Shown one piece after another: positions 2,399-58,262 of a stretch of 64,000 nucleotides of DNA; position 1 is the first letter of the stretch; every line of letters starts with the position of its first letter. A model generated the notes under the pieces. That model was not told the DNA's origin and searched no databases. It worked only from the letters and a program-made list of their open reading frames with translations. Origin of the DNA: a virus; the IMG/VR virus record IMGVR_UViG_3300031576_000010, positions 1 to 64,000 of that record, one strand, 5' to 3'. The position numbers were made by a program, and so were the translations under genes.

Positions 2399-3322
2399 AT
2401 GAGTCACCTACAGAACCTACAGCGGCAACGGCAGCGGCGAGAGCGCCGGTCGCTTGGGTTGTGCTGCCGGTGCAGTAGGAAGGCGTTGCCCGACCGTTCC
2501 CTCTGTCAATTGTGTCGAGAGAAAATCTCGCTATCCAGGGCCTGGACCGGACATCGCGCCTGGGCGCAGGTGTGGCGACGTCGCCGATGGGAGCGACGCC
2601 TCTGCTGTGCCGCCTTGTTGGCGGCCGGTCGGGTCGTCCGGTTGACTCGGGTGGACGATCTGGCGTTGTCGCTTGGGATCGCCCGCACCACCGATCTTGC
2701 CCATTTGTACGGGTGCCCGATGTCGATGGTCTCGGCGGCCCGTTGCGAAACCGACACCCGGTATGCGCGCGCTGGACTACGAAAGCTCGGCCTGCTGGAC
2801 CCGACCAAGAGACTCTTGGTGCCAGTCCAGGATGCTCGCCCGCCAGATGATGCATTGTCCGTTCGCGAAGGTCTCGCCCTCTTGCCCGCGATCGTGAGGC
2901 TCGCGCGCGACGAGTACGACCTTACCGATCGCCACATACGTGTGGCTCGCCTGCGTGCTCAAGGATTGCGGTTGAAGCAGATCGGCCAACAGGAGGGGGT
3001 GTCGCGCGAGCGGATCCGCCAGATCGAAGCGGAGGCCATCCGGTTGATGCGTGAGGCGCTCAACCAGTTGAACCGCTTGACCACCGCCGCGGTGATCCAG
3101 TACCGGAAGCGGTACATGATGGAGGCCAATCAACCCCGTCGCCCGTTCCGCACCGCCATTGCCTATCGGGTAGCTGCTGGCGGATGGGCGCTAGGGCTGT
3201 CGTGCGGGCATGTCGTACGGCGCCCGAACATGACCAACGAATCGCTGTGGGATCAGTACGGGAAGGCGTTTCTCGTGCGATGCCAGCATTGCCCGATGGA
3301 ACCGACCGGCGCGACACCATGA
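2399..3322 (+). CDS. Sigma-70 region 4-like transcription factor with zinc ribbons
   Basis: 307 residues. Residues about 180-225 contain a helix-turn-helix with the sigma-70 region-4 signature: RLKQIGQQEGVSRERIRQIE followed by AEAIRLMR. This is the part of sigma factors that reads the -35 element and touches the beta-flap. The N-terminus has a zinc-knuckle (CCRCSRKALPDRSLCQLC) and the C-terminus another CGH...CQHC pair. Regions 2 and 3 are not recognisable, so it could be a divergent phage sigma factor or a co-activator. It is a candidate reader of the late motif found at 40.3, 56.5 and 62.5 kb. Its stop overlaps the next start (ATGA). Confidence 0.65.
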   Translation: MSHLQNLQRQRQRRERRSLGLCCRCSRKALPDRSLCQLCREKISLSRAWTGHRAWAQVWRRRRWERRLCCAALLAAGRVVRLTRVDDLALSLGIARTTDLAHLYGCPMSMVSAARCETDTRYARAGLRKLGLLDPTKRLLVPVQDARPPDDALSVREGLALLPAIVRLARDEYDLTDRHIRVARLRAQGLRLKQIGQQEGVSRERIRQIEAEAIRLMREALNQLNRLTTAAVIQYRKRYMMEANQPRRPFRTAIAYRVAAGGWALGLSCGHVVRRPNMTNESLWDQYGKAFLVRCQHCPMEPTGATP

Positions 3323-4454: not shown

Positions 4455-5105
4455 CTACCTTCTGCTCCCGAACGTAGGGGTCTTACGGTGGCACGGGACA
4501 CAGAGGGTTCTGCCGTTCCGGACGTCGAACCGAAGCTCCGGGTATCGCGCGAACGGCTTGATGTGGTCAGCGTTCAGCCGGCCACCACGAGTACCGCATG
4601 TTCGACAGGTGTAGTCGTCCCGCGTGAACACGGCCGTCCGCCAAGTCGCGTACTCAGCGGACATGCGAATTCGAGTGGCTTCCGGAGATGCACCGCCTTT
4701 CCAGTTGTGCGCTTTCTCACCACGTTGAGCCGCAGCGATCTTCGCGCGTGTTTCCGGTCGGCACTCACGTCCAAGCAACGCCTTACGCAGCTTTTCCCTA
4801 ACGCTGGGCCTCGACAGGATCTCCCTGTTCGCCTTCTGAATTCGCTCCAGTGCTTCTGGGCTGTGTCGCCTGCCTGTGTGCTTAGTGATCATCCTGGTGC
4901 GATACGCGGGATCGGCCCATCGCCTCTTCATTCCAGCCGACATCTTCGCGATCGTTTCGGGCGCCTTCTCGACCCCCTTGTTCTGTGTCTTCCCGCGGTG
5001 GGCAGCGGCCATCATCTCGGCATAGCCTGGATCCCTCCAGGACCGAAATTTAGCTTCCGACAGCTTCCTCCTCGTCTCCTTGCTGTGCTTGGACCCCTTC
5101 CGCAC
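4455..5105 (-). CDS. HNH homing endonuclease with NUMOD repeats
   Basis: 216 residues on the strand opposite to its surroundings. Three copies of a NUMOD-type DNA-binding helix occur (KHSKETRRKLSEAKF, HSPEALERIQKANRE, RPETRAKIAAAQRG), then NWKGG, then a C-terminal HNH core (CRTCG, NADHIKPFARYP, LCVPCH). NUMOD plus HNH is the usual build of free-standing homing endonucleases that cut allelic sites to spread. It sits exactly between two operon genes, leaving 5 bp on one side and 14 on the other, and its sequence is visibly less GC-rich than its neighbours. Both points indicate a mobile insertion. Confidence 0.85.
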   Translation of the reverse strand: MRKGSKHSKETRRKLSEAKFRSWRDPGYAEMMAAAHRGKTQNKGVEKAPETIAKMSAGMKRRWADPAYRTRMITKHTGRRHSPEALERIQKANREILSRPSVREKLRKALLGRECRPETRAKIAAAQRGEKAHNWKGGASPEATRIRMSAEYATWRTAVFTRDDYTCRTCGTRGGRLNADHIKPFARYPELRFDVRNGRTLCVPCHRKTPTFGSRR

Positions 5106-5119
5106 ACCAAGAGGATATC

Positions 5120-6754
5120 ATGTACCTCATAGACGGTACGCCACTCCTCTACAGGGCCGCCCACTCCTATACCCTGACAACCTCACGCGGTGAGCCAAGC
5201 GGCATCGTCTACGGAGCGGTTAAGATCCTGTTGGGGCTCATTCGCAAGCTCGACACCACCACCGCGGAGATAGTCGTGTTCTGGGACCATGGGAGATCAC
5301 GTTATCGGACCGCCCGCTACCCCGCCTACAAGGACACGCCCGCCCGCGCCGCATCCAAGGCGATGTTGCCAGGAGGATCGTTCCAGGATCAGCGGGCCGC
5401 CGTCCATGCCATCTTCCAGGCGAAGGGGATCCGACAGGTCTCGGTCGAGGGAATCGAAGCGGATGACCTCATCGCCATCGCGACGACCACCGGCACTCAT
5501 GTGGTCGTGTCGGACGATCTAGACCTTTGGCAGCTCATCGGGCAGCGCGGCACCCAGGTGTACGCGCCCGTCAAGGAGATGTGGGTCCGCGATCGGGACG
5601 ACTGCTTCAAGCTGACGGGCCTGTGGCCCGAGCAGATCGCCCCCTACAAATCACTTTCCGGTGATCCAAGTGACGGACTACCCGGCGTCACGGGCGTGGG
5701 CGACAAGACCGCCAAGCAGCTCCTGTCGGTCGTCCAAGACCTCGCCGAGCTGTACCGACGGCTTCGCACACCTGGCGACCGCTTGCCCGTCAGCGACCGG
5801 ATCGTCAACGCGCTGCTCGCCGAGGAGGATCGAGTCAAGCTGTGGTTCGACCTGTGCCAGCCGCTCGATTGGTCGATGCTGTCGCCCGCCGAGCAGGCCG
5901 GCTTTCTGGCCGGATGGCAGGGCCCCCTCCAGACCGACCGGACCGCCGAGTTCGAGCTGTACGAATCGTGGGAGCTGTACGAGTTCCGCCGGAAGCTATC
6001 GGAAGTCCCGTGGACCCGCCCGATCGCGGAGCCGGAGGTCCCGCGGGGCGATAGGATCGCCCGCCGGGGCATGCCGGCCAACCCGGACGATTGGCAGGTC
6101 CAACAGGCCGCCACCGCCGCGCAGGTGCGAGGCTGTCATGCCTGCACGATGCGACAGGAGTGCAGCGGGCCAGTTCCCGGCAACGTCGAGCGCGCGACTG
6201 AACGGCCGTGGGCCATGATCGTTGGGCGCAACCCAGGCGCCTCGGAGGACCGGGAAGGTCGTGGGTTCGTGGGGCCGGCGGGCAAGCGGCTCAACCAGTT
6301 GCTCGTCGGTCGAGCGGCCGATGAACGTGAGGTCCACGGCCGGTTGATCGAGCGCGCGACCACCTGGGTGACCAACACAGCGAAATGCTGGACAACAGGC
6401 AATCGAGAACCAGAGCCGCATGAGTGGCAGGTGTGCGCGGGGCTATTTCTCCGGGAAGAGATCCGGGCGATTCAGCCACGCCTCATCCTATCGTTCGGCG
6501 CGCTTGCGATGACTGCCTTGACAGGGTATACTGACTCCATCATGCAGCGATCCGGCACGACCGTCGCGGGCGTGGAAGCAAATGGGATAGTACAGTACGC
6601 CGTGCTGGATGGCGGGGAACGCCGGTGGGACCCTGTCATACCGCCCGCCTGCACGATCGTGTTGCTGCCCCACCCTGCCGCCGCGCTACGGACCAGGCAA
6701 GCGGAGCTGAAGCTCCAGCAGGCCGGCAGAGTTGTTGCGGATCTTCTCAAGTGA
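5120..6754 (+). CDS. Fusion of 5'-3' exonuclease (FEN) and family-4 uracil-DNA glycosylase
   Basis: 544 residues. Residues 1-290 are a PolA-type 5' nuclease: MYLIDGTPLLYR, FWDHGRSRYRTARYPAYKDT, EGIEADDLIAI, VVSDDLDLW and SGDPSDGLPGVTGVGDKTAK carry the metal-binding acidic residues and the helix-hairpin-helix. Residues about 335-544 are a family-4 UDG: Fe-S cysteines C339, C342, C423 and C439, the GRNPGASEDREGRGFVGPAG loop, the asparagine in TNTAKC, and the C-terminal HPAAALR. The usual GEaPG motif reads GRNPG, so catalysis may be altered. Joining Okazaki/repair flap removal to uracil excision in one protein is unusual. SPO1-like phages fuse UDG to a polymerase instead. Confidence 0.85.
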   Translation: MYLIDGTPLLYRAAHSYTLTTSRGEPSGIVYGAVKILLGLIRKLDTTTAEIVVFWDHGRSRYRTARYPAYKDTPARAASKAMLPGGSFQDQRAAVHAIFQAKGIRQVSVEGIEADDLIAIATTTGTHVVVSDDLDLWQLIGQRGTQVYAPVKEMWVRDRDDCFKLTGLWPEQIAPYKSLSGDPSDGLPGVTGVGDKTAKQLLSVVQDLAELYRRLRTPGDRLPVSDRIVNALLAEEDRVKLWFDLCQPLDWSMLSPAEQAGFLAGWQGPLQTDRTAEFELYESWELYEFRRKLSEVPWTRPIAEPEVPRGDRIARRGMPANPDDWQVQQAATAAQVRGCHACTMRQECSGPVPGNVERATERPWAMIVGRNPGASEDREGRGFVGPAGKRLNQLLVGRAADEREVHGRLIERATTWVTNTAKCWTTGNREPEPHEWQVCAGLFLREEIRAIQPRLILSFGALAMTALTGYTDSIMQRSGTTVAGVEANGIVQYAVLDGGERRWDPVIPPACTIVLLPHPAAALRTRQAELKLQQAGRVVADLLK

Positions 6755-7539
6755 GAAGGATTTTCTCAACTAAGCAAGAGCGCCACGTTGCCAGGCGATA
6801 CGTGCAAGGAGCCAGTCTGCAAGCCCTGGCCATGTTTTTTGGTGTTTCGACGCCGACGATTTCCACCGCGCTCAAGCACGTAGGTGTGCGCGCCAGGCCG
6901 GCCCATCGTCATCGCACGTATCGCTGTGATGAGAGCGTCTTCGATACACTGACACGGGACACTGCTTACTGGGTTGGGTTTTTGATGGCAGATGGGTGTA
7001 TCTACTATGATGGGAGTTATCGAATAACTGTGGGGCTACAAAGTCAAGATCGCGCGCACCTGCACAAGCTGCGGCGATTCCTGAGATCAGATCACGCTAT
7101 CACCGAAACGGTGAAGAGGACGACTCAACATCGAGGAGTTCGATACAGCATCAGATCCGGACGACTCGCGCTTGCACTTGGCCGATGGGGTGTAACGCCA
7201 AGAAAGTCCTTTTCGGCGAAAGCGCGTGGTGGAATCGATCAGATGGCATCGTTCTGGCGGGGTGTTGTCGACGGCGATGGGAGCGTCATGCTGACCCGTG
7301 GTAGGCGCTACCCGTGCATCAGCCTCGTAGGCGCGTCGCGTGCTTTACTCAACCAGTTCGTTGCCTTTCTCGCCAGACGCGGGCTCGTTGCCAAAAATCG
7401 TTCTGGCGGATCCGGTCGCTGGCAAGTTGCGGTGTACGGTGAGAGCGCCAGTAGGCTTGCCAAGATCCTGTATACGAAGACCGGCCCAGCTCTTGCGCGG
7501 AAGAGGAAGACAGCGAACAAGCTGATGAAAAACGATTGA
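6751..7539 (+). CDS. LAGLIDADG homing endonuclease with N-terminal HTH
   Basis: 262 residues starting at GTG 6751, which overlaps the stop of the FEN-UDG gene. An N-terminal helix-turn-helix (ARRYVQGASLQALAMFFGVS) is followed by two LAGLIDADG-type motifs, YWVGFLMADGCI and FWRGVVDGDGSV, each ending in the acidic catalytic position. Two motifs in one chain mean it can cut as a monomer. The TGA stop forms part of the -35 element of the next promoter. Codon use is less GC-rich than in the flanking genes, consistent with mobility. Confidence 0.85.
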   Translation: MRRIFSTKQERHVARRYVQGASLQALAMFFGVSTPTISTALKHVGVRARPAHRHRTYRCDESVFDTLTRDTAYWVGFLMADGCIYYDGSYRITVGLQSQDRAHLHKLRRFLRSDHAITETVKRTTQHRGVRYSIRSGRLALALGRWGVTPRKSFSAKARGGIDQMASFWRGVVDGDGSVMLTRGRRYPCISLVGASRALLNQFVAFLARRGLVAKNRSGGSGRWQVAVYGESASRLAKILYTKTGPALARKRKTANKLMKND

Positions 7540-8267: not shown

Positions 8268-8774
8268 GTGGGGATCCCGCTCTACAAGGCGGCCGTCCTG
8301 ATGGGCTACCAGAAGGCCCACGTGGCCGGGCCAAGAGGCCAGCTCATCCGGGTGTCGATTGGGTCGCCCCTGTTCCCCGGCCAATGGACCGAGCTGAAGA
8401 TCGGGGACGGGTCCGGCATGTACATGCACGGCCGCACCAAGAAACCGATGCTCTGGTGGGTCGCGGAGCAGTGGCTGGCGGACGGCGACCTCCTCAAGAT
8501 CGAGACGAAGGTGGGGGAGGCGGGGGTCGGGCGGGACGAAACCCGCTCGATGGAGATGGTGTTCTCGATCGATCCACGCGCCCCTCTCGTCGAGGTCAAG
8601 TGGAAGGGGCTGGGCTATCGGGACTGGCCCCTCCTGAAGGCACGGGTCCGGGAGGTGTCGCGCACGACCCCCCAGATGGAACGGGACATCTCGATCACCG
8701 CGGTCTATGACGACCGGCAGGACGGCCCGCGCGATAGCGAGGCGGTGGCAACCAAGCGGCAGGCTGACGAATGA
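8268..8774 (+). CDS. Hypothetical protein, 168 aa
   Basis: Starts GTG 8268, 3 bp after the previous stop. It contains aromatic-rich strand-like segments (LFPGQWTELKIGDGSGMY, KPMLWWVAEQWL) and an acidic/basic tail. No family recognised. It belongs to a run of small, tightly packed rightward genes and overlaps the next start by 4 bp. Confidence 0.55.
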   Translation: MGIPLYKAAVLMGYQKAHVAGPRGQLIRVSIGSPLFPGQWTELKIGDGSGMYMHGRTKKPMLWWVAEQWLADGDLLKIETKVGEAGVGRDETRSMEMVFSIDPRAPLVEVKWKGLGYRDWPLLKARVREVSRTTPQMERDISITAVYDDRQDGPRDSEAVATKRQADE

Positions 8775-10173: not shown

Positions 10174-10395
10174 GTGGGTCGGATCAAGGTCGAGGTGAAT
10201 GGCAAACTGGCCATGTTGCGCGAGGAGACGTCCATGGAGACGCGGGAGCGGGAGACTCGCGAGGCGTGGGCGGTTGAGGACCGGCAGACCCTCGTGTGCG
10301 CGGCCAAGAGCCGCCGGGTACCCGGCGCCGACCACATGAGCAGAGCTAAGCTGCTCGACGCTATTGTGGCGATTGAGCTGGGCAAGGATCGATGA
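10174..10395 (+). CDS. Small protein with SAP/Rho-N-like C-terminus
   Basis: 73 residues from GTG 10174. The C-terminal half (SRRVPGADHMSRAKLLDAIV) resembles the helix-extended-loop-helix of SAP or Rho-N domains that bind nucleic acid; the match is short and tentative. The stop overlaps the start of the helicase gene by 4 bp, so the two are probably translated together. Confidence 0.45.
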   Translation: MGRIKVEVNGKLAMLREETSMETRERETREAWAVEDRQTLVCAAKSRRVPGADHMSRAKLLDAIVAIELGKDR

Positions 10396-11288
10396 TCACG
10401 CTGGCGGGCGCGGGGCGCGACCGACTCGCCATCTTCCTGGTCGACGAACCCGAGGATGCCGCGGCGGTGATCCGCTCGCTCCTGAACGTCCGGGAGAACC
10501 GGAACCAGACCGGCTTCTTCCTCCCGGTCCACGACTTCCCGATCCTCCGCGAACGGCTCGACCGCCTTGGCATCACCCAAACAACCGGCCGGCGCGAAAT
10601 GGACGACAACGCCGCACTCGCGGTCCGGTCGTACCTGGCCGCGCTCGAACGGAACGATCGCATCAAGGCGGGCGACCTGAACGACGAGATCGTCGCGGAC
10701 ATCGAAGCAGGTGCGCTCAAGAGTCCCCTGTGGACCGACCAGGTCGCGGACGTCCGGTTCATCCTGCGGCACGGGCGTGTCGGGGTGTTCAGCGAGATGG
10801 GGGTGGGCAAGAGCTTGACCGCGCTCGCCGGCTTCGTGGTCTTGCGGGCCCGCCGGCTCGCAAGGTACGCGCTGGTCATCGGGCCCAACGCGGTCAAGCA
10901 GAACTGGATCCGGCAGATCGCCCAGCACACCAGCATGACGGTCGAGGAGCTGGGGAACGGGCGGTCGACCGTCTTGCGCCGCATCAAGAAGCAGGCGGCC
11001 CGCCGGACCGACGTCTGCATCACGCACTACGAGGCGCTCCGGTCCGACGACATCCGCGACCAGCTCGTCAAGATGCCGTTCGACATGGTCATCTTAGATG
11101 AGATTCATCGTGCAAAAAACCTCGACACCGACACGACCAAGGCGGTGGCCGACACGCTCGCGCGGATCCGCCCGGCCGTCGAGCTAGTCGAAGCTGATAT
11201 CGAGCTGGTGACAGAGACTGGCATCGTATTGACGACCGCACTTCTTCCTGCTAGCATGGCCATTGGTGATGAGGTCGAGTTCCTCTAG
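10392..11288 (+). CDS. SNF2-family helicase, N-terminal half (split gene)
   Basis: 298 residues. Walker A is SEMGVGKS (134-141), motif Ia lies in VIGPNAVKQNWIRQI, and motif II is DEIH (236-239). Similarity to SNF2/DEAD helicases stops after DTLARIRP (about residue 261, base 11,172). The last 37 residues are unlike the family and contain the promoter of the following HNH gene, so they look like read-through into inserted DNA. The missing motifs III-VI are found 8.6 kb away at 19866-20933. The protein could work only if it pairs with that second half. Alternatively it is an inactive remnant. Confidence 0.8.
   Translation: MITLAGAGRDRLAIFLVDEPEDAAAVIRSLLNVRENRNQTGFFLPVHDFPILRERLDRLGITQTTGRREMDDNAALAVRSYLAALERNDRIKAGDLNDEIVADIEAGALKSPLWTDQVADVRFILRHGRVGVFSEMGVGKSLTALAGFVVLRARRLARYALVIGPNAVKQNWIRQIAQHTSMTVEELGNGRSTVLRRIKKQAARRTDVCITHYEALRSDDIRDQLVKMPFDMVILDEIHRAKNLDTDTTKAVADTLARIRPAVELVEADIELVTETGIVLTTALLPASMAIGDEVEFL
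11229..11257 (+). promoter_or_regulatory. Promoter for HNH gene
   Basis: TTGACG (11229-11234), 17-bp spacer, TAGCAT (11252-11257), directly before the HNH start. It lies in the tail of the SNF2 N-terminal half, supporting the view that this tail is inserted sequence. Confidence 0.5.
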
Positions 11289-11919
11289 ACGAAAGTTTAC
11301 CGACAGGCAGGAGAAGGCGATCTGCCGTCGTTACTCGGCCGGCGGAGACGGCTGCGTCATACTTGCCAAGGCGTTCGGCTGCACGCACCAGACCATCTTG
11401 GATGTGTTGCGACGTCACGATGTCGCGGTCCGAGACCACACCGCACCAAAGCCAGGCCGCCGAAAGCTGAAAGGACAGGAGAGACGCGTGCTCGCCGCGT
11501 ATGCGGCTGGAGCCAGCATCAGAAAGCTAGCGGTCAAACACGGGGTCTCGGACGTGGCGGTCAAGGGGCTCCTCGTTCGCAACGCCGTCGAGATCCGCAA
11601 GGTGCGAGGGCCGACGGCTTGGAACTGGAACGGCGGCCGTCATGCGACGAGCGCCGGTTACATCTACGTGCGGTTATACCCTGGCCACCGCTTCTTCCAC
11701 CTGACGAGACGCGGCTTGATCCTTGAACACCGGTTGATCATGGCGCAACTGCTTGGGCGACCACTCACGGCACGCGAGATGGTTCACCATATCAACGGGA
11801 TCAAGGACGACAACCGCCAGGAGAACCTTCAGCTCCACCACAGGAACCACGGATCCGGAGTGGTGCTCAGATGTCAGGCGTGTGGGTCTGTAGATATCAA
11901 ACCGGACAAGATCGCTTGA
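11263..11919 (+). CDS. HNH homing endonuclease with HTH repeats
   Basis: 218 residues from TTG 11263 (ATG 11269 is also possible). Two N-terminal helix-turn-helix units (RRYSAGGDGCVILAKAFGCT and AYAAGASIRKLAVKHGVSDV) precede NWNGG and an HNH core, LEHRLIMAQLLG and MVHHINGIKDDNRQENL, with a C-terminal CQACG. This is a free-standing homing endonuclease. It lies where the SNF2 helicase is broken, between motifs II and III, which are conserved codons typical of homing target sites. The stop codon forms part of the next promoter's -35 box. Confidence 0.85.
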   Translation: MVMRSSSSRRKFTDRQEKAICRRYSAGGDGCVILAKAFGCTHQTILDVLRRHDVAVRDHTAPKPGRRKLKGQERRVLAAYAAGASIRKLAVKHGVSDVAVKGLLVRNAVEIRKVRGPTAWNWNGGRHATSAGYIYVRLYPGHRFFHLTRRGLILEHRLIMAQLLGRPLTAREMVHHINGIKDDNRQENLQLHHRNHGSGVVLRCQACGSVDIKPDKIA

Positions 11920-11958: not shown

Positions 11959-14049
11959 ATGAGCGACTACATCGACGACGTCTTCGGGGCGAACGGCATC
12001 TTGGCCAAGAGTGACCTGCGCGCCGCCGTCCGGCCCGGCCAGATCGAGATGGCGCGAGCGGTCGACCATTCGCTCCGCGCCCGCGCCAACATGATGTGCG
12101 AGGCGGGAACCGGGACGGGCAAAACGTTCGCCTACCTGGTGCCCGCGATCGCCAACCAGTTGGTCACGATCGTCGTGACGCGCAACAACCTGCTGGCCGA
12201 CCAGCTCTACCTCAAGGACCTGCCGACCCTCCACCGGCTCCTTCCGTGGAAGTTCACGTTCGCGCAGATCAAGGGGAAGGGGCGGTACCTGTGCGTCGCC
12301 AAGTTCCCGGGGCTTCCGGGCTCATCGCCCCCGCCCCTACAACGGTACGATGACGCCGACGTCGACGCCGAGATCCAGCGGTGGGCCCCAACCACCCGGA
12401 CGGGCGACTTCTCGGAGCTGTCGTTCACCATCCCGGACCGCCTGCTCCACCGCTACACCGCCAACCAGGACGAGTGTGAACGGCGCAAGTGCCCCGCGTT
12501 CCAGTCGTGCCACTACTACGCGGCCAAGCGGAACGCGGCAGTCGCCCAGGTGGTCGTGACCAACTACCACGTGTTCTTCTCGCACCTGCGGTACGGCCGC
12601 GTCCTGCCCGACTACGACGTCGTCATCATGGACGAGGGGCACGACGCCCCCGACATCGCGCGCGACTTCTTCGGGTTCCGCGTGACCGCTGGGGCGGTCA
12701 GGAGGATCGCGGGTCTGGTCGGCAGAGCCTCGAAGGCCAGCGGGGACGCGGCCGCCGCGCTCAAGAACGAGTTGATCGACTCGGCCAACACCCTGTTCGC
12801 CGACCTGGCTGCCTACCAGGCGATCGAGCGGGGCATCCGGATCAGGAAACCGATCGCCGTCGAGTACACCGGAACCGTCCGGCTGCTCCGCGATGCCGCC
12901 AGCCAGTTGAAAGACGAGGCCGATGAGCTGGCTGTAGAGGACCCGCCTGGCCGCCAGGAGTTGCTCCGGCATTCCCGCCGCGCCTCCGAACTGGCCCGCC
13001 AGATCACCGAGGCGGTCAACCTCTCGAAGCACGAGTCGTTCATCTACCAGATCGACGGCGATCGCGCCGACCTGGTCAGCCGGGCGATCAACCCGGCCGA
13101 GTTTCTCGCGCGCCATCTCAACGTCGGGCCCGCGCCCGACACCGAGGAGTCGAGCGCGGCCGAGAATGACGATGGCGTCTACGACGACCAACCGGCCGAC
13201 GAGACACCCGAGCCCCACGCGCACGTCATGACGTCCGCGACCATCACGACCCCGACGCTCGGCGGGGCGCCGTCGTTCGAGTTCGTGCGCACCACCATGG
13301 GGATCAAGGAGACGGGCGTCTGCTTGGCCGAGTCGCCATTCCAGCTCGACCGACAGTGCCTCCTGATCATCCCGTGGGAAGCGCCCAGGCCGCCGGAGGG
13401 TCGTCTGTCCCCCGCCACCAGAGCCGAACGGATGAAGGGGTGGCACGCGGGTGTCGCCAGCATGGTGGTCAAGGTGGCGGAGCGGGCGCGCGGCCGTACC
13501 CTCGCGCTCTTCACGTCGAACGCGTCGCTCAACGCATCGTACGACGCGCTCGTGCGCGCGGGCCTGCCGTACCAGATCCTCCGGCAGGGTGGCGGCACCC
13601 CCAACGCCAAGCTGGTCGAGGCGTTCAAGCGGGACGTCAACTCGGTCCTGCTGGGCGTCGACTCGTTCTGGCAGGGGATCGATGTGCCTGGCGAATCGCT
13701 CTCGTGCGTCGTGATCGACAAGCTGCCATACAAGCACAGCGGCATCGACCCCATCCTCGACGCGATCGAAGAGCGGGACGGACGCGACCGTGCGTTCACC
13801 GAGTACAACCTGCCCCGCACCATCATCCAGTTCCGACAGGCGTTCGGCCGGCTGATTCGGTCAGAGGCCGACAAGGGCGTGGTCGTCATGCTCGACCCGC
13901 GCGTCATCGAGCGAAACCGCGCCCAGTTTCTCGGCGCGTTGCCTGGTGTGCGACTCAGCCAGGACCTCGGCGACATCCCATGCTTCCTCGACGGCGCTGC
14001 ACCGATCCCATTCGTGTTGCCGCCTCCGCCGCGGGTTGGAATCCGATGA
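11959..14049 (+). CDS. DinG/XPD-family Fe-S DNA helicase
   Basis: 696 residues, the normal length for DinG. Walker A AGTGTGKT is at 49-56. Fe-S cysteines are C112, C173, C178 and C184, in the spacing of XPD/DinG enzymes, followed by VVTNYHVFF. The Walker B box reads DEGH (225-228). The C-terminal half has SFWQGIDVPGESLSCVVIDK and the motif VI sequence QFRQAFGRLIRSE. These enzymes unwind DNA 5'-3' and displace R-loops. The stop overlaps the start of the Cas12-like gene (ATGA), so the two are coupled. In type IV-A CRISPR a DinG helicase is the working enzyme, which suggests a similar partnership here, although an ordinary replication role is also possible. Confidence 0.85.
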   Translation: MSDYIDDVFGANGILAKSDLRAAVRPGQIEMARAVDHSLRARANMMCEAGTGTGKTFAYLVPAIANQLVTIVVTRNNLLADQLYLKDLPTLHRLLPWKFTFAQIKGKGRYLCVAKFPGLPGSSPPPLQRYDDADVDAEIQRWAPTTRTGDFSELSFTIPDRLLHRYTANQDECERRKCPAFQSCHYYAAKRNAAVAQVVVTNYHVFFSHLRYGRVLPDYDVVIMDEGHDAPDIARDFFGFRVTAGAVRRIAGLVGRASKASGDAAAALKNELIDSANTLFADLAAYQAIERGIRIRKPIAVEYTGTVRLLRDAASQLKDEADELAVEDPPGRQELLRHSRRASELARQITEAVNLSKHESFIYQIDGDRADLVSRAINPAEFLARHLNVGPAPDTEESSAAENDDGVYDDQPADETPEPHAHVMTSATITTPTLGGAPSFEFVRTTMGIKETGVCLAESPFQLDRQCLLIIPWEAPRPPEGRLSPATRAERMKGWHAGVASMVVKVAERARGRTLALFTSNASLNASYDALVRAGLPYQILRQGGGTPNAKLVEAFKRDVNSVLLGVDSFWQGIDVPGESLSCVVIDKLPYKHSGIDPILDAIEERDGRDRAFTEYNLPRTIIQFRQAFGRLIRSEADKGVVVMLDPRVIERNRAQFLGALPGVRLSQDLGDIPCFLDGAAPIPFVLPPPPRVGIR

Positions 14050-15959
14050 AAAGAAAACTATTGACTACCGAAACAATGGACGATGACGTCACGCGAGAGA
14101 ATCAAGAGGAAGAGAAAACGGGACCAAAGCGCCATGTCCCGCGAGAGCGAGCAACCGCTGCCCTCCGACTCGATGTTCGACGCGTCACGTCCACCGGCCT
14201 CGTCGGCAAAGAGGCATGGGCATTGCTCACCTCCGAGTATGAAAAGGTCGCGCGGGGCGTCCAAGACGGACTGACACGTGTGTGGTTGCGGATCCACCAG
14301 CTACGTCAACAACACGGTCGAATCAGGTGGCCGTTTACCGCTGAGATGACGGCGTGGCCTGAAGGTACCCCATTACCAGTCGAGTGGTTTCGGGACACCG
14401 ACTTCGACCGGGATCCGACCGTAGGTCCGAGGTATATGCCGCCTATCATTACCGGCAAGACAAGCAAGCCATTGAAGAATCAACCCAAGAAGCCCGACTT
14501 CCTTGCGGCCTACCGGGCCGGCGAATGGTTGGGCGTACAGGACACCATCTACTACGCGCTCCGTGCCCAAGGGGTCGGTAGCGCGATCGCTGCCAGCACA
14601 TCCAACAAGATCGCCGGCTCGGAGCTGTCCTGGTCGAAGTTGATCCGGCTGATCAATGGTGGACTCAAGTATCCGGTGCTCGACCGAACATTCATGATCA
14701 TTCCAGGGAGTGACTGGAGCCTCTCGTTCTCTCCGGTCGAGCGCCCCGTCACCAAGAAGGATGAGCACGGCAACGTCATGGTCGACAAACGCGGCAAGGA
14801 GCTTTACGTACGCGATGCGGCCAAGAAGGTCATGTACGCGCCCGTCTTCGATGAGAACGGCGACCCGGTCCTCGCGCCCGTCATCAATTTCCGCGTCGGT
14901 ATCGACAACCTGCCTTTACGACTCACGTGCGAGCGGTTCCACGGGAAGGGCGCGCGTTCACGCAACGTCATCCTCAACCACTTGGCAGCGATGGGGGCAA
15001 GTGTCGGAGATGTCAACACCGACCAAAAGAAGACGCGAAGGAAGAAACCGCTCGATGCCGACGAAGTGGCCGCTATCATAAAGACTGGCTGGCACCGCGG
15101 AGCCATCACGATCCGTCGTGTCTGTGAGAGGGCCGGGGCCAAGACGTCGTGGCAAGCGATCATCGCATACCACTCGCCAAGACCGGACAAGAACACGGAG
15201 ACAGACGCGGTCGTCGCGGTACACCGAGGCATCGCCAACTTTCTGACGGTTGCGGTGCTGTATCCTAATCGAGACAAGCCGTGGTTTCCGCATGCTTTCT
15301 CCGGCGACGGGATCGTCCGATCGAAAGTGATGTTCGGGGCTGAGCGTGATCGAGCACGACGCCGCGGCGGCGGCGTTGGGCGGCGGGCGCGCAACCGCCT
15401 GATGGCAAAAGTGGGTGACAAGGAAAGACGGCTCAGCAGTCTTCACTGCTGGCGGGCTGCCGCCTGGCTACAACGTATCATCGAGGAGGTAAATCCCAAA
15501 CTAGTCATCCTAGACGATTTCTCCACGCCGATCGTATCGGACTCTGGAGAATCATTGCCAGGGATGATTACCAGGTTTCCGTTCGCCCAACTCAAGCTGA
15601 AGGTGATCGACGCCATCACTAGAAGGGCGGGCGTTGAAGTCATCGAGGTACCGTCGAAGTACGTGTCGGTCCAGTGCCCAGTGTGCAACAACACCGATCA
15701 GGGGAACATTCACAAGCGTGCGGGCGTACGGTGCATCCCGCATTTGGAACGAGATGATCGCAACGCTGGCACGTTCGTGGAATCGGGTGAGTTCCACTGC
15801 ACCATGTGTCACACGGTCGGCGACTTGGATCGGATCGCCGCGCTAAATCTGCTGATTCGAGTAGGTGATCCGGACGGGAAGCTCCGCAAAGGGCTGTGGC
15901 GATACTATGAGCAGATCAACAGGGTCAAGGAGGCGGAAAAGAAGAAGAAGGTCGGATAG
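14046..15959 (+). CDS. Cas12-like CRISPR effector with degraded RuvC active site
   Basis: 637 residues, about the size of compact type V effectors. The C-terminal third aligns with TnpB/Cas12 RuvC order. RuvC-I is AVVAVHRGIANFLTVAV, with His393 where catalytic Asp is expected. A bridge segment is KVGDKERRLSSLHCWRA. RuvC-II is KLVILDDFSTP, with Asp490 replacing the catalytic Glu. Then come VEVIEVPSKYVSVQCPVC (C544, C547), a second pair FHCTMC (C585, C588), and RuvC-III DRIAALNLL with Asp595 kept. Two of three metal ligands are changed, so DNA cutting should be lost or weak while guided binding may persist. It precedes the CRISPR array by 288 bp. The N-terminal 390 residues match nothing I can name. 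The gene is less GC-rich than DinG, hinting at separate acquisition. Confidence 0.85.
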   Translation: MKRKLLTTETMDDDVTRENQEEEKTGPKRHVPRERATAALRLDVRRVTSTGLVGKEAWALLTSEYEKVARGVQDGLTRVWLRIHQLRQQHGRIRWPFTAEMTAWPEGTPLPVEWFRDTDFDRDPTVGPRYMPPIITGKTSKPLKNQPKKPDFLAAYRAGEWLGVQDTIYYALRAQGVGSAIAASTSNKIAGSELSWSKLIRLINGGLKYPVLDRTFMIIPGSDWSLSFSPVERPVTKKDEHGNVMVDKRGKELYVRDAAKKVMYAPVFDENGDPVLAPVINFRVGIDNLPLRLTCERFHGKGARSRNVILNHLAAMGASVGDVNTDQKKTRRKKPLDADEVAAIIKTGWHRGAITIRRVCERAGAKTSWQAIIAYHSPRPDKNTETDAVVAVHRGIANFLTVAVLYPNRDKPWFPHAFSGDGIVRSKVMFGAERDRARRRGGGVGRRARNRLMAKVGDKERRLSSLHCWRAAAWLQRIIEEVNPKLVILDDFSTPIVSDSGESLPGMITRFPFAQLKLKVIDAITRRAGVEVIEVPSKYVSVQCPVCNNTDQGNIHKRAGVRCIPHLERDDRNAGTFVESGEFHCTMCHTVGDLDRIAALNLLIRVGDPDGKLRKGLWRYYEQINRVKEAEKKKKVG

Positions 15960-16247: not shown

Positions 16248-16248
16248 G
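16205..16248. repeat. 14-bp perfect inverted repeat abutting first CRISPR repeat
   Basis: Left arm CCCGTCGCCAGGTA (16205-16218) and right arm TACCTGGCGACGGG (16235-16248) are exact complements around a 16-nt loop that can itself form a GCGG/CCGC stem. The right arm shares its last G with the first base of the array. No T-run follows on either side, so it is not a classical terminator. Confidence 0.75.
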
Positions 16249-19240
16249 TTCGCATCGGTAGGGACGATGCGGTGGAGTGCAGGAAGCGGATCAGCGAACG
16301 GGAGAAGGACCGCCGGGAGGTTCGCATCGGTAGGGACGATGCGGTGGAGTGCAGGTCGGCCGCTATCAGTGCGATCGCCTCGTTGAGGGTCGTTCGCATC
16401 GGTAGGGACGATGCGGTGGAGTGCAGGAGATAGTGACATCGGAATGGGACCGATTCTGAACCGAGTTCGCATCGGTAGGGACGATGCGGTGGAGTGCAGG
16501 GGCAGCGTCGAAGCGCAATGCGCGGCCGACGCGGAGTTCGCATCGGTAGGGACGATGCGGTGGAGTGCAGGCGGAAACGGAACTGCATGACGCGCATGAA
16601 GCTGGGTGGTTCGCATCGGTAGGGACGATGCGGTGGAGTGCAGGCCGTGGGCCAACCGGGCGAGCCAGTCGGCCTGGTTCGGTTCGCATCGGTAGGGACG
16701 ATGCGGTGGAGTGCAGGCAGTTTTCGGCCCGCCAGGCGGCGCCCGCTCTCACCGTTCGCATCGGTAGGGACGATGCGGTGGAGTGCAGGGTGAAGTAGCC
16801 GTCGGCCGATGCCGCCGCGCACCTGCCGGGTTCGCATCGGTAGGGACGATGCGGTGGAGTGCAGGGAGCGAGTCGCGTTCGATCAACCATCCCGGCCCGA
16901 CGTTCGCATCGGTAGGGACGATGCGGTGGAGTGCAGGGGCGCAAGCTGAAGGTGCTATTCGATGTCGGCTTCTCGTTCGCATCGGTAGGGACGATGCGGT
17001 GGAGTGCAGGGAGAACAAGGACCAGAGCCTGAACGTTGTCCTTGACGTTCGCATCGGTAGGGACGATGCGGTGGAGTGCAGGTGGGCCGAGCGATACGGC
17101 AAGTCCCTCGGGCTGGACGGTTCGCATCGGTAGGGACGATGCGGTGGAGTGCAGGTCCTGATCGGCGGCTCTACGGGATCAACGTGAGTAGTAGTTCGCA
17201 TCGGTAGGGACGATGCGAAGGAGTGCAGGGCGATCGTTTCGCGAACCGGGGTCGGCACCGTCTACTTCGGTTCGCATCGGTAGGGACGATGCGGTGGAGT
17301 GCAGGGGAGGTTCCGACGGCGCCTCCTCCGAAAGACTGGAGTTCGCATCGGTAGGGACGATGCGGTGGAGTGCAGGTCGTGTGGCGCGTCGACGAAGCGA
17401 TGGAGCAGGAGTGGTTCGCATCGGTAGGGACGATGCGGTGGAGTGCAGGATCGGAATGCCGCGCGCCAGCCCCTGCCGCACGATGGGTTCGCATCGGTAG
17501 GGACGATGCGGTGGAGTGCAGGGTCGGACACACCTCGGCCCTCGCGCGGCCAGGCGACAGGTTCGCATCGGTAGGGACGATGCGGTGGAGTGCAGGCACG
17601 AGACGAAACACCCACGACTTGCGCGGGCGGAGAGTTCGCATCGGTAGGGACGATGCGGTGGAGTGCAGGGGGAGTGCGCGGTCTGGGTTGACGATGAGGT
17701 CGCGAGGTTCGCATCGGTAGGGACGATGCGGTGGAGTGCAGGAACGCGGAACCAAGGCGACCGAGTTCCTCCCACTCGGGCGGTTCGCATCGGTAGGGAC
17801 GATGCGGTGGAGTGCAGGGCGTGCTGACCGGTGCCGGGCGGTAGCGATCTGACCGGTTCGCATCGGTAGGGACGATGCGGTGGAGTGCAGGTCCATCGAG
17901 GGCATCCCCCTCCTAAGCGGAGCTATCGGTTCGCATCGGTAGGGACGATGCGGTGGAGTGCAGGATCGGGTGCATCGAGAATGGCCCTGGTCGCTCTCGC
18001 AGTTCGCATCGGTAGGGACGATGCGGTGGAGTGCAGGAACTGGCGGTTCTCGGGGGTGAGGGCGCAACGGACGCGTTCGCATCGGTAGGGACGATGCGGT
18101 GGAGTGCAGGATGGTCGAGGTGTTCATGACGTCGAGCGGAACTGGGGTTCGCATCGGTAGGGACGATGCGGTGGAGTGCAGGATGGTCGAGGTGTTCATG
18201 ACGTCGAGCGGAACTGGGGTTCGCATCGGTAGGGACGATGCGGTGGAGTGCAGGCAGCGCAGCGACGATGGCCACAGGCGTCACTGGTGCGGGTTCGCAC
18301 CGGTAGAAACGATGCGGTGGAGTGCAGGGTTCGCCAACACGATCATGAAGTATGAAGTCTCGGCATCTGCCGATCGCACCGGTAGGGACGATGCGGTGGA
18401 GTGCAGGCGATGAATGGCTGCTCGGCGAGCTTGCCGACTTCGCGGATCGCACCGGTAGGAACGATGCGGTGGAGTGCAGGTGGTAGTGCGACAACGAGAA
18501 GTCGTGGTGACGGACCAGATCGCACCGGTAGGATGCGGTGGAGTGCAGGCCCAACTCCCCTCGAACCAACCGCGCACCAAATCGCCGAGATCGCACCGGT
18601 AGGGACGATGCGGTGGAGTGCAGGTACGAAGCGAGGCACGTCCGAGGCGAGATTCTGGACTGATCGCACCGGTAGGGACGATGCGGTGGAGTGCAGGAAC
18701 AACCCGGGCTGCACCGCAACGTGTGCGAGCGCCTAGGAACGATGTGGTGGAGTGGTGGAGTGGTGGAGTGCAGGAACGTGTTGTCGGTCCACTCGATAGG
18801 AACGATGTGGTGGAGTGCAGGCAGCCAGGTCAGCCAGCACCCTTCAGCACCCTTGCGGTGATGCCTGTTCGCACCGGTAGGAACGATGCGGTGGAGTGCA
18901 GGCAGGCGGGTGCCGCGTCAGGTGCCCAGCTCGGCTCCAGGTTCGCACGATGTGGTGGAGTGCAGGGCACAGATCGCGGGTGACTTGGTGCTCGCGGAGA
19001 CGCACTGGTATGAACGATGCGGTGGAGTGCAGGGGGCGCGACGAGATGCCTGTCGCCCCTAGGATACCGGATCGCAGTAGGAACGATGCGGTGGAGTGCA
19101 GGACCACAACGTGCGGGTCCGTCAACTGCCGGATTGCGCACCGGTAAGAACGATGCGGTGGAGTGCAGGATCTGGTTCTCGTCGTTCTTCGCTTGGGCCC
19201 AGGTTGTTCAGCACCGGTAGGAACGGTGCGGTGGAAGTAA
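16248..19240. CRISPR. CRISPR array, about 42 repeat units of 36 bp
   Basis: The repeat begins GTTCGCATCGGTAGGGACGA and continues TGCGGTGGAGTGCAGG (36 bp in total on the + strand). Spacers are mostly 35-40 bp. Copies 1-28 (16248-18254) are nearly identical, except copy 14 at 17194, where GGTG reads GAAG. From copy 29 (18293) rightward they drift: GCATCG becomes GCACCG, internal deletions appear (18518, 18941), and one unit near 18726-18773 has a GGTGGAGT expansion. The spacer at 18111-18146 is repeated exactly at 18183-18218. Each repeat holds a 7-bp hairpin, CGCATCG/CGATGCG. Transcription direction is unresolved: the decay gradient and leader favour +, while repeat structure (hairpin then AAC before the spacer) favours -. 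No Cas1 or Cas2 lies nearby. Confidence 0.97.
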
Positions 19241-19272: not shown

Positions 19273-19869
19273 ATGGAAGAGAGAAAAAGCAGGTACACAA
19301 ACTGGCTCACAGAGCTACGTGCGACACGTGCTCAAAGGGCCAAGGACGAGATCGCGTTCTACGCTCGCATCGCCGAGTTCGAGACCGATACGGACTCGTG
19401 GGAATGGACAGGTATCTCGTTCGACCGAATCCTCAAGCTGGAATGCGGCATCTCGCCAGACCGCTACCGCGCGTACGTCAAGGCTGTCCGGCTCATCGGC
19501 CATGAGATGCTGCTTGGACTCGGGATGGACGTTGCGCTACGGCTCCGTCGTTTCATCGTTGATGACATTATACTGGCGACCCGTCTTTATGAGCGGGTTG
19601 CCACCCGCATCATTGGGTTCTCTGCTACGCACGACCGCTACCCAAGCCCAACCTACATCGGCCAGATCCTACGTGAAGAAGCCAAACGGCTCGGCATCGT
19701 CGTGCCGGTCAAGCAGAAGACCGAAGACAAGCTACAAACGGCGATCGGTGCGCTTCGCCGCATCGCTGAAGCGAAGGGTCTGAGCCGCAAAGAGATGCAG
19801 ACGATCGCCGCCGAAACGCTCGTACAAGTGGACATTGAGGTGGATGGTGTGGAGGACCACCCGGAGTGA
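19273..19869 (+). CDS. Unknown helical protein next to CRISPR array, 198 aa
   Basis: ATG 19273 follows a good ribosome site (GGAGAGGAAG), 32 bp after the last degenerate repeat. The protein is mostly helical and charged: KSRYTNWLTELRATRAQRA near the start, a WEWTGISFDRILKLECGIS segment, and a C-terminal GLSRKEMQTIAAETLVQVD helix. No catalytic motif or membrane segment is visible, and I do not recognise a family. Its codon use resembles the Cas12-like gene more than the helicases. Its stop overlaps the start of the SNF2 C-terminal half. An accessory or regulator of the CRISPR system is a guess based on position only. Confidence 0.7.
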   Translation: MEERKSRYTNWLTELRATRAQRAKDEIAFYARIAEFETDTDSWEWTGISFDRILKLECGISPDRYRAYVKAVRLIGHEMLLGLGMDVALRLRRFIVDDIILATRLYERVATRIIGFSATHDRYPSPTYIGQILREEAKRLGIVVPVKQKTEDKLQTAIGALRRIAEAKGLSRKEMQTIAAETLVQVDIEVDGVEDHPE

Positions 19870-20933
19870 AGGGCCGCATCCGCTCCGTCCGCCCGTTCCA
19901 GGAGGCCCGCCGCGTCCTCCTGACCGGCACGCCTGTCAGCGAATCTCCGCTCAACGCGTTCCCCGTCCTCCAGCTCATCGCGCCCGAACGCGTTCCGTCG
20001 AAGACCCGGTTCGACCACCACTTCATCGTCCGGGCCGCCACAAAGGCGGGGCCCGTCACCGTCCAGAAGGCGGTCGGCTACAACAACCTCGACGAGCTGA
20101 AGCGGATGCTGGAGGCGGTGTCGGTCCGGCGCCTGAAGGCCGACATCCGCGGGATGCCCGACCGCGTCGAGACGGTGCGGTACTGCCAGCCATCCGGCCG
20201 CCAACACGACCACTACCGCGAGATCCTCAAGGGCATCCTGGCCGACATCGCCGCGTCGCCCGACTGGGCCCTCACGCTCGACATCGCGTGCGTCAAGTTG
20301 CTGCGGCTCCGCCAGGTGCTCAACTCGCCCGAGATCCTCGGGCTCGACGGGCGGTCCGGCAAGTACGACGAGCTGGATGGAGTGGTCGAGGAGGTGCTCT
20401 CTGATTCCGGCCCATACGAAGCGAAGCTGTTGATCTGGACCGAGTGGAACCGGGCGGTCGACCTCCTAGCCAGCCGGTACTCTGGACACGGAGTCATCAC
20501 GGTCGACCAGCGGACCACTCAGCAGCAACTCGCCGAGTATGAGAGGACGTTTGACCGTTCAGATGAGCGGATTGTGATTGGGACGCCAAAAAAGGCCGGG
20601 ACGGGGATGGACTGGCTGGCTAGGTGTCGGACGGCCATTTACGTCGAGAAGACGTACTCGCTGGTCAACCATGTTCAAAGCATAGATCGGATCGTCCGGA
20701 GGGTCGGGGAGGGTGACCCGGCCGACTCACCGGCTGTTCAGCAGGTCAAGCGAATCAAGCGGTCACCCGCGTCCATCCTGTATCTCCACGTGCAAAACAG
20801 CGTTGACGACGCGGTTGATTTCGTCCTCCGGAGGAAAATCGATCTTGGCGTCGCCCTCCTCACAGAAGATGCTAGACTCATGGAAGATGGGCGTATGGAT
20901 TTACTCCAGATGCTCCAGACGGGCATGAGCTAG
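19866..20933 (+). CDS. SNF2-family helicase, C-terminal half (split gene)
   Basis: 355 residues from GTG 19866, which overlaps the previous stop (GTGA). It starts just before helicase motif III (VLLTGTPVSES, about residue 17) and has no Walker A or DEAH box. It contains the usual second RecA domain: LLRLRQVLNSPEIL, LLIWTEWNRAVDLLASRY, IVIGTPKKAGTGMDW and motif VI VQSIDRIVRRVGEG. With residues 1-261 of the gene at 10392 it makes one complete SNF2 helicase of about 610 residues. The repeated RIRP at both edges (ARIRPA and RIRSVRPF) suggests where the gene was opened. Confidence 0.8.
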   Translation: MKGRIRSVRPFQEARRVLLTGTPVSESPLNAFPVLQLIAPERVPSKTRFDHHFIVRAATKAGPVTVQKAVGYNNLDELKRMLEAVSVRRLKADIRGMPDRVETVRYCQPSGRQHDHYREILKGILADIAASPDWALTLDIACVKLLRLRQVLNSPEILGLDGRSGKYDELDGVVEEVLSDSGPYEAKLLIWTEWNRAVDLLASRYSGHGVITVDQRTTQQQLAEYERTFDRSDERIVIGTPKKAGTGMDWLARCRTAIYVEKTYSLVNHVQSIDRIVRRVGEGDPADSPAVQQVKRIKRSPASILYLHVQNSVDDAVDFVLRRKIDLGVALLTEDARLMEDGRMDLLQMLQTGMS

Positions 20934-58005: not shown

Positions 58006-58262
58006 CTCCGCCGCGCGTACTCGTGGCGGGGCGACAGCGCGACCGATCGGAGCGCTTCTGGTGTGCAAAGACGGAGGGGGATCGAGAAGGACGGGAGCAG
58101 TCCCTTCGTGACCTTGATGTTCTTCAGCTCGAACGCTTGGCCCAACGAGGCGACGTGGTTGTAGCCGTAGTACAGCGGCTGACGACCAGCTCCGCAGCAG
58201 TTGCAGGTCTGGTGGTTCCAGCAGAGCGTCGTGGTGCTGCTGTAGCTGGTGTCGGGCGCCAT
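57999..58262 (-). CDS. Small cysteine-cluster protein, 87 aa
   Basis: MAPDTSYSSTTTLCWNHQTC then NCCGAG near the start suggests a zinc knuckle; the rest is strand-like. It overlaps the intein-bearing gene's stop and the next gene's start. Family unknown. Confidence 0.5.
   Translation of the reverse strand: MAPDTSYSSTTTLCWNHQTCNCCGAGRQPLYYGYNHVASLGQAFELKNIKVTKGLLPSFSIPLRLCTPEALRSVALSPRHEYARRRC

Follow-up and report, generated by a model that had tools for sequence, protein, structure and literature searches.

A viral gene joining a predicted FEN nuclease to a family-4-like uracil-DNA glycosylase with a GRNPG motif A

The fusion gene and its two halves

The window analyzed in this study comprises 64,000 nucleotides, positions 1-64000 of a 99,908-base IMG/VR virus record (IMGVR_UViG_3300031576_000010) that is linear and perhaps partial. 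A single open frame at 5120..6754 (+) starts with ATG and encodes 544 amino acids followed by a stop. The sequence AAGAGG, which by eye resembles a ribosome-binding site, is located 5 nt before the ATG (5109..5114, +). Three Pfam domains scored over their gathering cut-offs in the encoded protein: PF02739 (85.3 bits vs 34.3), PF01367 (51 bits vs 40), and PF03167 (66.2 bits vs 24.3). PF02739 marks the FEN N-terminal resolvase-like domain at residues 1-157 (5120..5590, +), and PF01367 the FEN C-terminal SAM-fold domain at residues 169-241 (5624..5842, +), which includes D182 and D185. PF03167 (residues 365-530) falls within a family-4-like Fe-S uracil-DNA glycosylase (UDG) domain, placed at about residues 331-544 (6110..6751, +) by the Pfam, NCBIfam, and fold matches. 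The single frame and these domains bear out the first-pass annotation, which had described a FEN and a family-4-like UDG in one 544-residue protein.

The N-terminal half is predicted to belong to the FEN/5'-3' exonuclease family, based on PF02739, PF01367, and the metal-binding carboxylates, which we take to be those listed for T5/Taq FEN. These residues (D5, D56, E113, D115, D116, D133, D135, D182, and D185) were kept in 11 of 11 fusions. Both Pfam domains and all nine carboxylates are common to phage and bacterial FENs (T5 D15, E. coli ExoIX/Xni, and the PolI N-terminal domain), from which the window protein differs by its additional C-terminal UDG domain.

The protein was then modeled with AlphaFold2 using 27 aligned rows (mean pLDDT 86.2, pTM 0.58). 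Both domains were mostly above pLDDT 90. Segments with pLDDT below 50 were residues 299-317, which form a low-confidence linker (6014..6070, +), 398-412, and 494-497. In Foldseek searches against the PDB, the FEN half best matched FENs (9l56, 6c36, 3zdb, and T5 FEN), and the UDG half matched family-4 UDG and UdgX (1ui1, 4zbx, and 6ioa). Among the 50 matches listed in a BFVD fold search, FEN and UDG were each matched separately, with no joint match; the best TMq was 0.44, which fits one half per match.

Related fusions and gene neighborhood

The first-pass annotation had proposed a domain search for other FEN-UDG fusions. Scans of IMG/VR with growing alignments found at least 10 further distinct full-length fusions (L048, L126, L144, L145, L148, L156, L162, L168, L166, and L172), so that with the window's own there are at least 11 fusion proteins on at least 13 contigs. 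L145 was found on three contigs identical over the fetched 9.4 kb. The relatives' fusions were 22-31% identical to the window protein. Among the 80 loci listed in the last fusion scan, 11 had fused ORFs and 69 had FEN ORFs without UDG. No FEN fusion appeared among 80 E-type motif loci listed, 79 of which gave a UDG ORF. A viral contig scan with P0001 alone returned no loci, and an INPHARED tblastn search matched 185 records, in none of which 80% of the query was covered at a single place. A genome contig scan with A2, patterns from the FEN half alone, gave six loci, none fused; five were PolA-length ORFs.

These relatives bear on whether the ORF is a chimera from sequencing or assembly, or two adjacent genes united by a missed frameshift, the weak point named in the first-pass annotation. 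We scored the ORF with a codon-usage model trained on other genes, with the fusion gene excluded. The UDG half scored lower than the FEN half, and this less typical codon usage counts in favor of a chimera. However, the gene's own frame scored above both remaining forward frames in each scoring window across the ORF, and no frame shift was seen near residue 300. Because the frame is open and 10 further distinct fused ORFs exist elsewhere, on independent contigs with common neighbors, a missed stop or frameshift was excluded. A chimeric origin was rejected, and we give it practically no chance. These results confirm that the FEN-UDG fusion is real, conserved, and coherent, and no assembly accident. 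Its presence in further viral lineages makes it a genuine, conserved form of the known phage replication-repair fusions.

We next compared the fused proteins. GRNPG, E376, F383, N419, and H518 were kept in 9 of the 11, the window's included. N428 was replaced by Asp in L144 and L148, and C342 by Tyr in L156. In L166 and L172, motif A, N419, and H518 are gone, but C339, C342, C423, and C439 remain. Among the catalytic relatives, the UDG halves were conserved as much as or more than the FEN halves. A UDG tree was built with 120 domains, including ten FEN-UDG rows; L144 was omitted as a near-duplicate (95%) of L148. All ten rows lay on one side of a branch, with weak support (SH-aLRT 69). L166 fell within a starred (96) nine-row set containing seven catalytic fusions and two others, which we read from the tip order as L166 and L172, the missing fusion being the window's. 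An earlier tree with three fusions had placed the stand-alone UDG of L026 among them. The history we favor, which is not proven, is that the fusion arose once and that catalytic decay came later in two members. The catalytic residues would have decayed while the cysteines stayed, and the loss looks secondary because L166 and L172 are nested inside the fusion clade. In these two, the role of the UDG-derived domain is probably limited to binding DNA or a partner.

The order fusion, 142-aa gene, and SNF2 helicase was found in 9 of 10 relatives' loci and in the window; neither the 142-aa gene nor the helicase was seen in the 7.4 kb of L162. In the window, the homologue of the 142-aa gene encodes 168 aa (8268..8774, +), and the SNF2 helicase lies in an N-terminal part (10392..11288, +) and a C-terminal part (19866..20933, +), corresponding to residues 7-262 and 270-603 of the intact 604-aa helicase of G002. 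The 8.6-kb insert between them contains an HNH-like ORF (by eye, 11263-11919), an XPD/DinG-like helicase, a Cas12-like ORF, and an array. In this CRISPR-like array (16248-19200), a 36-nt repeat recurs about every 73 nt in about 38-40 copies, and the adjoining ORF (13356-15959, +) carries a TNB domain similar to that of Cas12f1 (PF07282); together, array and ORF may form a phage-borne mini type V-like system. Homing-endonuclease-like ORFs (HNH; LAGLIDADG_3) lie on both sides of the fusion gene at 4455-5105 (-) and 6625-7539 (+). In L128 (3992-6610, +), a FEN that stands alone directly precedes what by eye is an SNF2-like helicase, so that the same pairing occurs without a UDG.

Downstream of SNF2, G002 carries DnaB-like and CHC2-like genes (both weak matches) followed by PolA, clamp-loader, and RecA genes, and G001 has homologues of these replication genes in unchanged order. 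The one PolA checked, that of G002, has only 3'-5' exonuclease and polymerase domains, without a FEN or UDG domain. A separate PolA (PF00476) was present in 7 of 7 relatives' records searched, and the only FEN in each of G001 and G002 is the fused one. The window's 99.9-kb record, which is linear and perhaps partial, gave no PF00476 (PolA) or PF07733 (PolIII-alpha) match and one PF03167 match. No PF00692-type dUTPase was found in the 7 records searched. Other features were seen in these records. One ORF of the window (2399-3322, +) contains sigma-70 region 4 and may encode a phage sigma factor. Two proteins have intein splicing domains, at 58262-60814 (-) in the window and 4778-7216 (-) in L004; one of them is an AAA ATPase that also has an HNH_3 domain, and the other has a LAGLIDADG domain. 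L004 also encodes a TROVE/Ro60-like protein (117-1826, -). Directly upstream of its FEN-UDG gene, L048 has an ORF that by eye is like ribosomal protein S12 (1150-1554, +).

Class of the UDG half and its motif A

The C-terminal half belongs to the UDG superfamily, with PF03167 above its cut-off and Foldseek matches to 1ui1 and 4zbx. It carries C339, C342, C423, C439, N419, N428, and H518. The four family 4 Fe-S cysteines are thus present, as the ligand pair C339-x2-C342 (6134..6145, +), C423, and C439 (6434..6436, +). The stretch TNTAKC runs from N419, the equivalent of the uracil-binding Asn, to C423 (6374..6388, +). N428 (6401..6403, +) is the equivalent of the family 4 water-coordinating Asn, and motif B HPA contains the catalytic His, H518 (6671..6673, +). 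By motif order and alignment, we take N419, N428, and H518 to match N80, N89, and H155 of family 4. Motif A is GRNPG at residues 369-373 (6224..6238, +), and GE(A/G)PG of family 4 is absent. The nearest NCBIfam models to this half were archaeal type-4 UDG, UdgX, and family-4, all below their curated cut-offs; the family 4 scores were 76.3 vs 125.3 bits for TIGR00758 and 82.5 vs 250 for NF040953. In comparison with the family 4 enzyme TthUDGa (1ui0/1ui1), the window protein has in common the fold, the four Fe-S cysteines, the N80/N89/H155 equivalents, E47, and F54, but differs by the GRNPG motif A, the FEN fusion, and the sub-cut-off TIGR00758 score.

Two other classes were considered. UdgX has the fold and Fe-S core in common with the window protein (Foldseek match 6ioa), but membership was rejected because motif A is GRNPG and not GEQPG, and because CWTTGNREP stands where the KRRIH R-loop would be. 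The scaffold of family 2 and 3 UDGs lacks Fe-S cysteines. These families (MUG and SMUG) were rejected because, although Asn at position 3 is common to them and the window protein, the latter has four cysteines and its closest folds are family 4. In the accessible text of PMC10359453, motif A is GINPG in family 2, GMNPG in family 3, GE(A/G)PG in family 4, and GEQPG in UdgX, and position 3 of family 4 is mostly A, G, or Q. PMC5387724 reports that family-4 catalysis is driven by H155 and N89, that the motif 1 doublets EG and QD are correlated, and that changes at E41 of TthUDGa cost activity, with E41Q causing an about 900-fold loss on k2/Km. Since E41 changes lower TthUDGa activity, R370 may point to an enzyme that is weak or altered.

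We then examined motif A across viral UDG domains, of which 113 remained after duplicates were removed from a set of 123. Positions 2-3 were EA in 63, EG in 11, ES in 1, QN in 18, RN in 14, IN in 3, and KN, MN, and EN in 1 each. Asn was therefore present at position 3 in 38 of 113 domains. The first-pass annotation had pointed to GRNPG in place of the family 4 motif; the motif and its departure from family 4 both stand, and the altered specificity suggested there is a hypothesis. The Asn type is not confined to the fusions. Glu at position 2 was lost in 37 of the 38 Asn-type domains and retained in 75 of 75 others, in a set partly fetched by an Asn pattern that left position 2 free; the p-value of this co-variation, 4e-29, is too small because the domains are related. 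The pattern GxNPGxxEDxxGxxFVG matched 37 viral stretches, and the E-type pattern had at least 120 viral matches. Within one bacterial phylum, the Asn pattern was found in none of 398 genomes and the E pattern in 70 of 119. On the earlier UDG tree, the Asn label needs 15 changes, at least 4 of which are forced by well-supported (starred) branches, and a single-origin N-type clade was therefore rejected. These results indicate that the Asn type is a natural third doublet beside E-A/G and Q-D; its chemistry is what we infer from the sequences.

Proposed function and relation to known fusions

We consider it somewhat probable that the protein is a phage replication-repair enzyme, in which FEN flap removal and uracil excision by a tethered Fe-S UDG serve long-patch base-excision repair. 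From the domains and gene context, the FEN half would supply the 5' nuclease missing from the phage's separate PolA and may trim 5' flaps and RNA primers in lagging-strand maturation. The Fe-S UDG half would scan the same DNA and excise uracil, whether produced by deamination or brought in as dUTP. Once an AP endonuclease has nicked the DNA and the strand has been displaced, the FEN half could remove the abasic-site flap, and the first and late steps of long-patch repair would then lie on one polypeptide. In the UDG active site, the Q/R-N doublet replaces E-A/G of motif A. By position, its Asn corresponds to the water-activating Asp of family 1 and the Asn of families 2/3 and may likewise act on water, in addition to the retained N419, N428, and H518.

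It is also conceivable, though unlikely, that the UDG-derived domain serves mainly as a non-catalytic Fe-S module for DNA binding or for docking of the FEN or the SNF2 helicase, with glycosylase activity incidental or lost. L166 and L172 speak for such a module, as they keep the four cysteines without motif A, N419, and H518, and the L166 model (pTM 0.87) still matches UdgX 6ioa, weakly (E 3e-6, TMt 0.53). Excision is thus not essential to the fusion everywhere, and R370 stands in the place of a Glu important in family 4. Against this, 9 of 11 fusions keep the catalytic positions (two with Asp for N428), GRNPG is invariant in these nine, and the degenerate members are nested. Less probable still is that the domain excises another base, for example another deaminated or a modified pyrimidine in host or rival phage DNA, with the R/Q-N doublet marking the change. 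Motif A positions 2-3 are unlike family 4, position 3 resembles families 2/3, and many viral UDGs carry the doublet, which was not found in the 398 bacterial genomes of the one phylum. However, the N419 equivalent was conserved in 113 of 113 viral domains and the F383 equivalent in 112 of 113, suggesting that the base pocket is unchanged, and the analysis turned up no evidence on modified bases. Beyond the replication-repair enzyme itself, we tentatively propose that an Asn-type Fe-S UDG with its own water activation or specificity may have originated repeatedly in phages, that one lineage joined it to a FEN as a two-enzyme excision-repair machine at the fork, and that in parts of this lineage the glycosylase became a catalytically dead Fe-S DNA-binding domain of the nuclease; we hold this broader picture to have clearly less than an even chance.

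UDG-polymerase fusions are already known in phages; the FEN partner and the active-site variant are new. The contrast with polymerase fusions drawn in the first-pass annotation holds. Among nine IMG/VR proteins scanned, UDG-PolA fusions were found in L013, L035, and L053 and PolIII-alpha-UDG fusions, with UDG C-terminal, in L049, L055, and L121; two further UDG-polymerase proteins (L046 and L082) were partial. The accessible text of PMC7412058 describes a UDG-PolA fusion with a separate FEN in phage PaBG and the Lupandier group. PaBG as described there and the window's relatives have in common a family-4-type UDG on a replication enzyme and a phage with FEN and PolA functions. In PaBG, UDG sits at the N terminus of PolA and a gene of its own encodes FEN, whereas in the window protein UDG is C-terminal on FEN, with PolA separate in the relatives. 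The FEN-UDG arrangement complements the published one. The PolIII-alpha-UDG proteins resemble the window protein in having a family-4-like UDG at the C terminus of a replication enzyme, but their partner is a C-family polymerase and their motif A positions 2-3 are EA. In the literature searched (CC-licensed PMC papers), we recognized no description of a FEN-UDG fusion.

The UDG partners in phage replication are now PolA, PolIII-alpha, and FEN. The addition of FEN to the UDG-bearing replication enzymes speaks for selection acting on uracil surveillance at the phage fork. The degenerate L166 and L172 allow glycosylase and DNA-binding roles to be separated without mutagenesis, and with the natural R/Q-N doublet the correlated-doublet model of UDG catalysis published for TthUDGa (EG to QD) can readily be tested. 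The sole UDG domain that combines Glu with Asn in motif A (GENPG), in an 821-aa ORF of L027 (5223-7685, +), is a possible intermediate.
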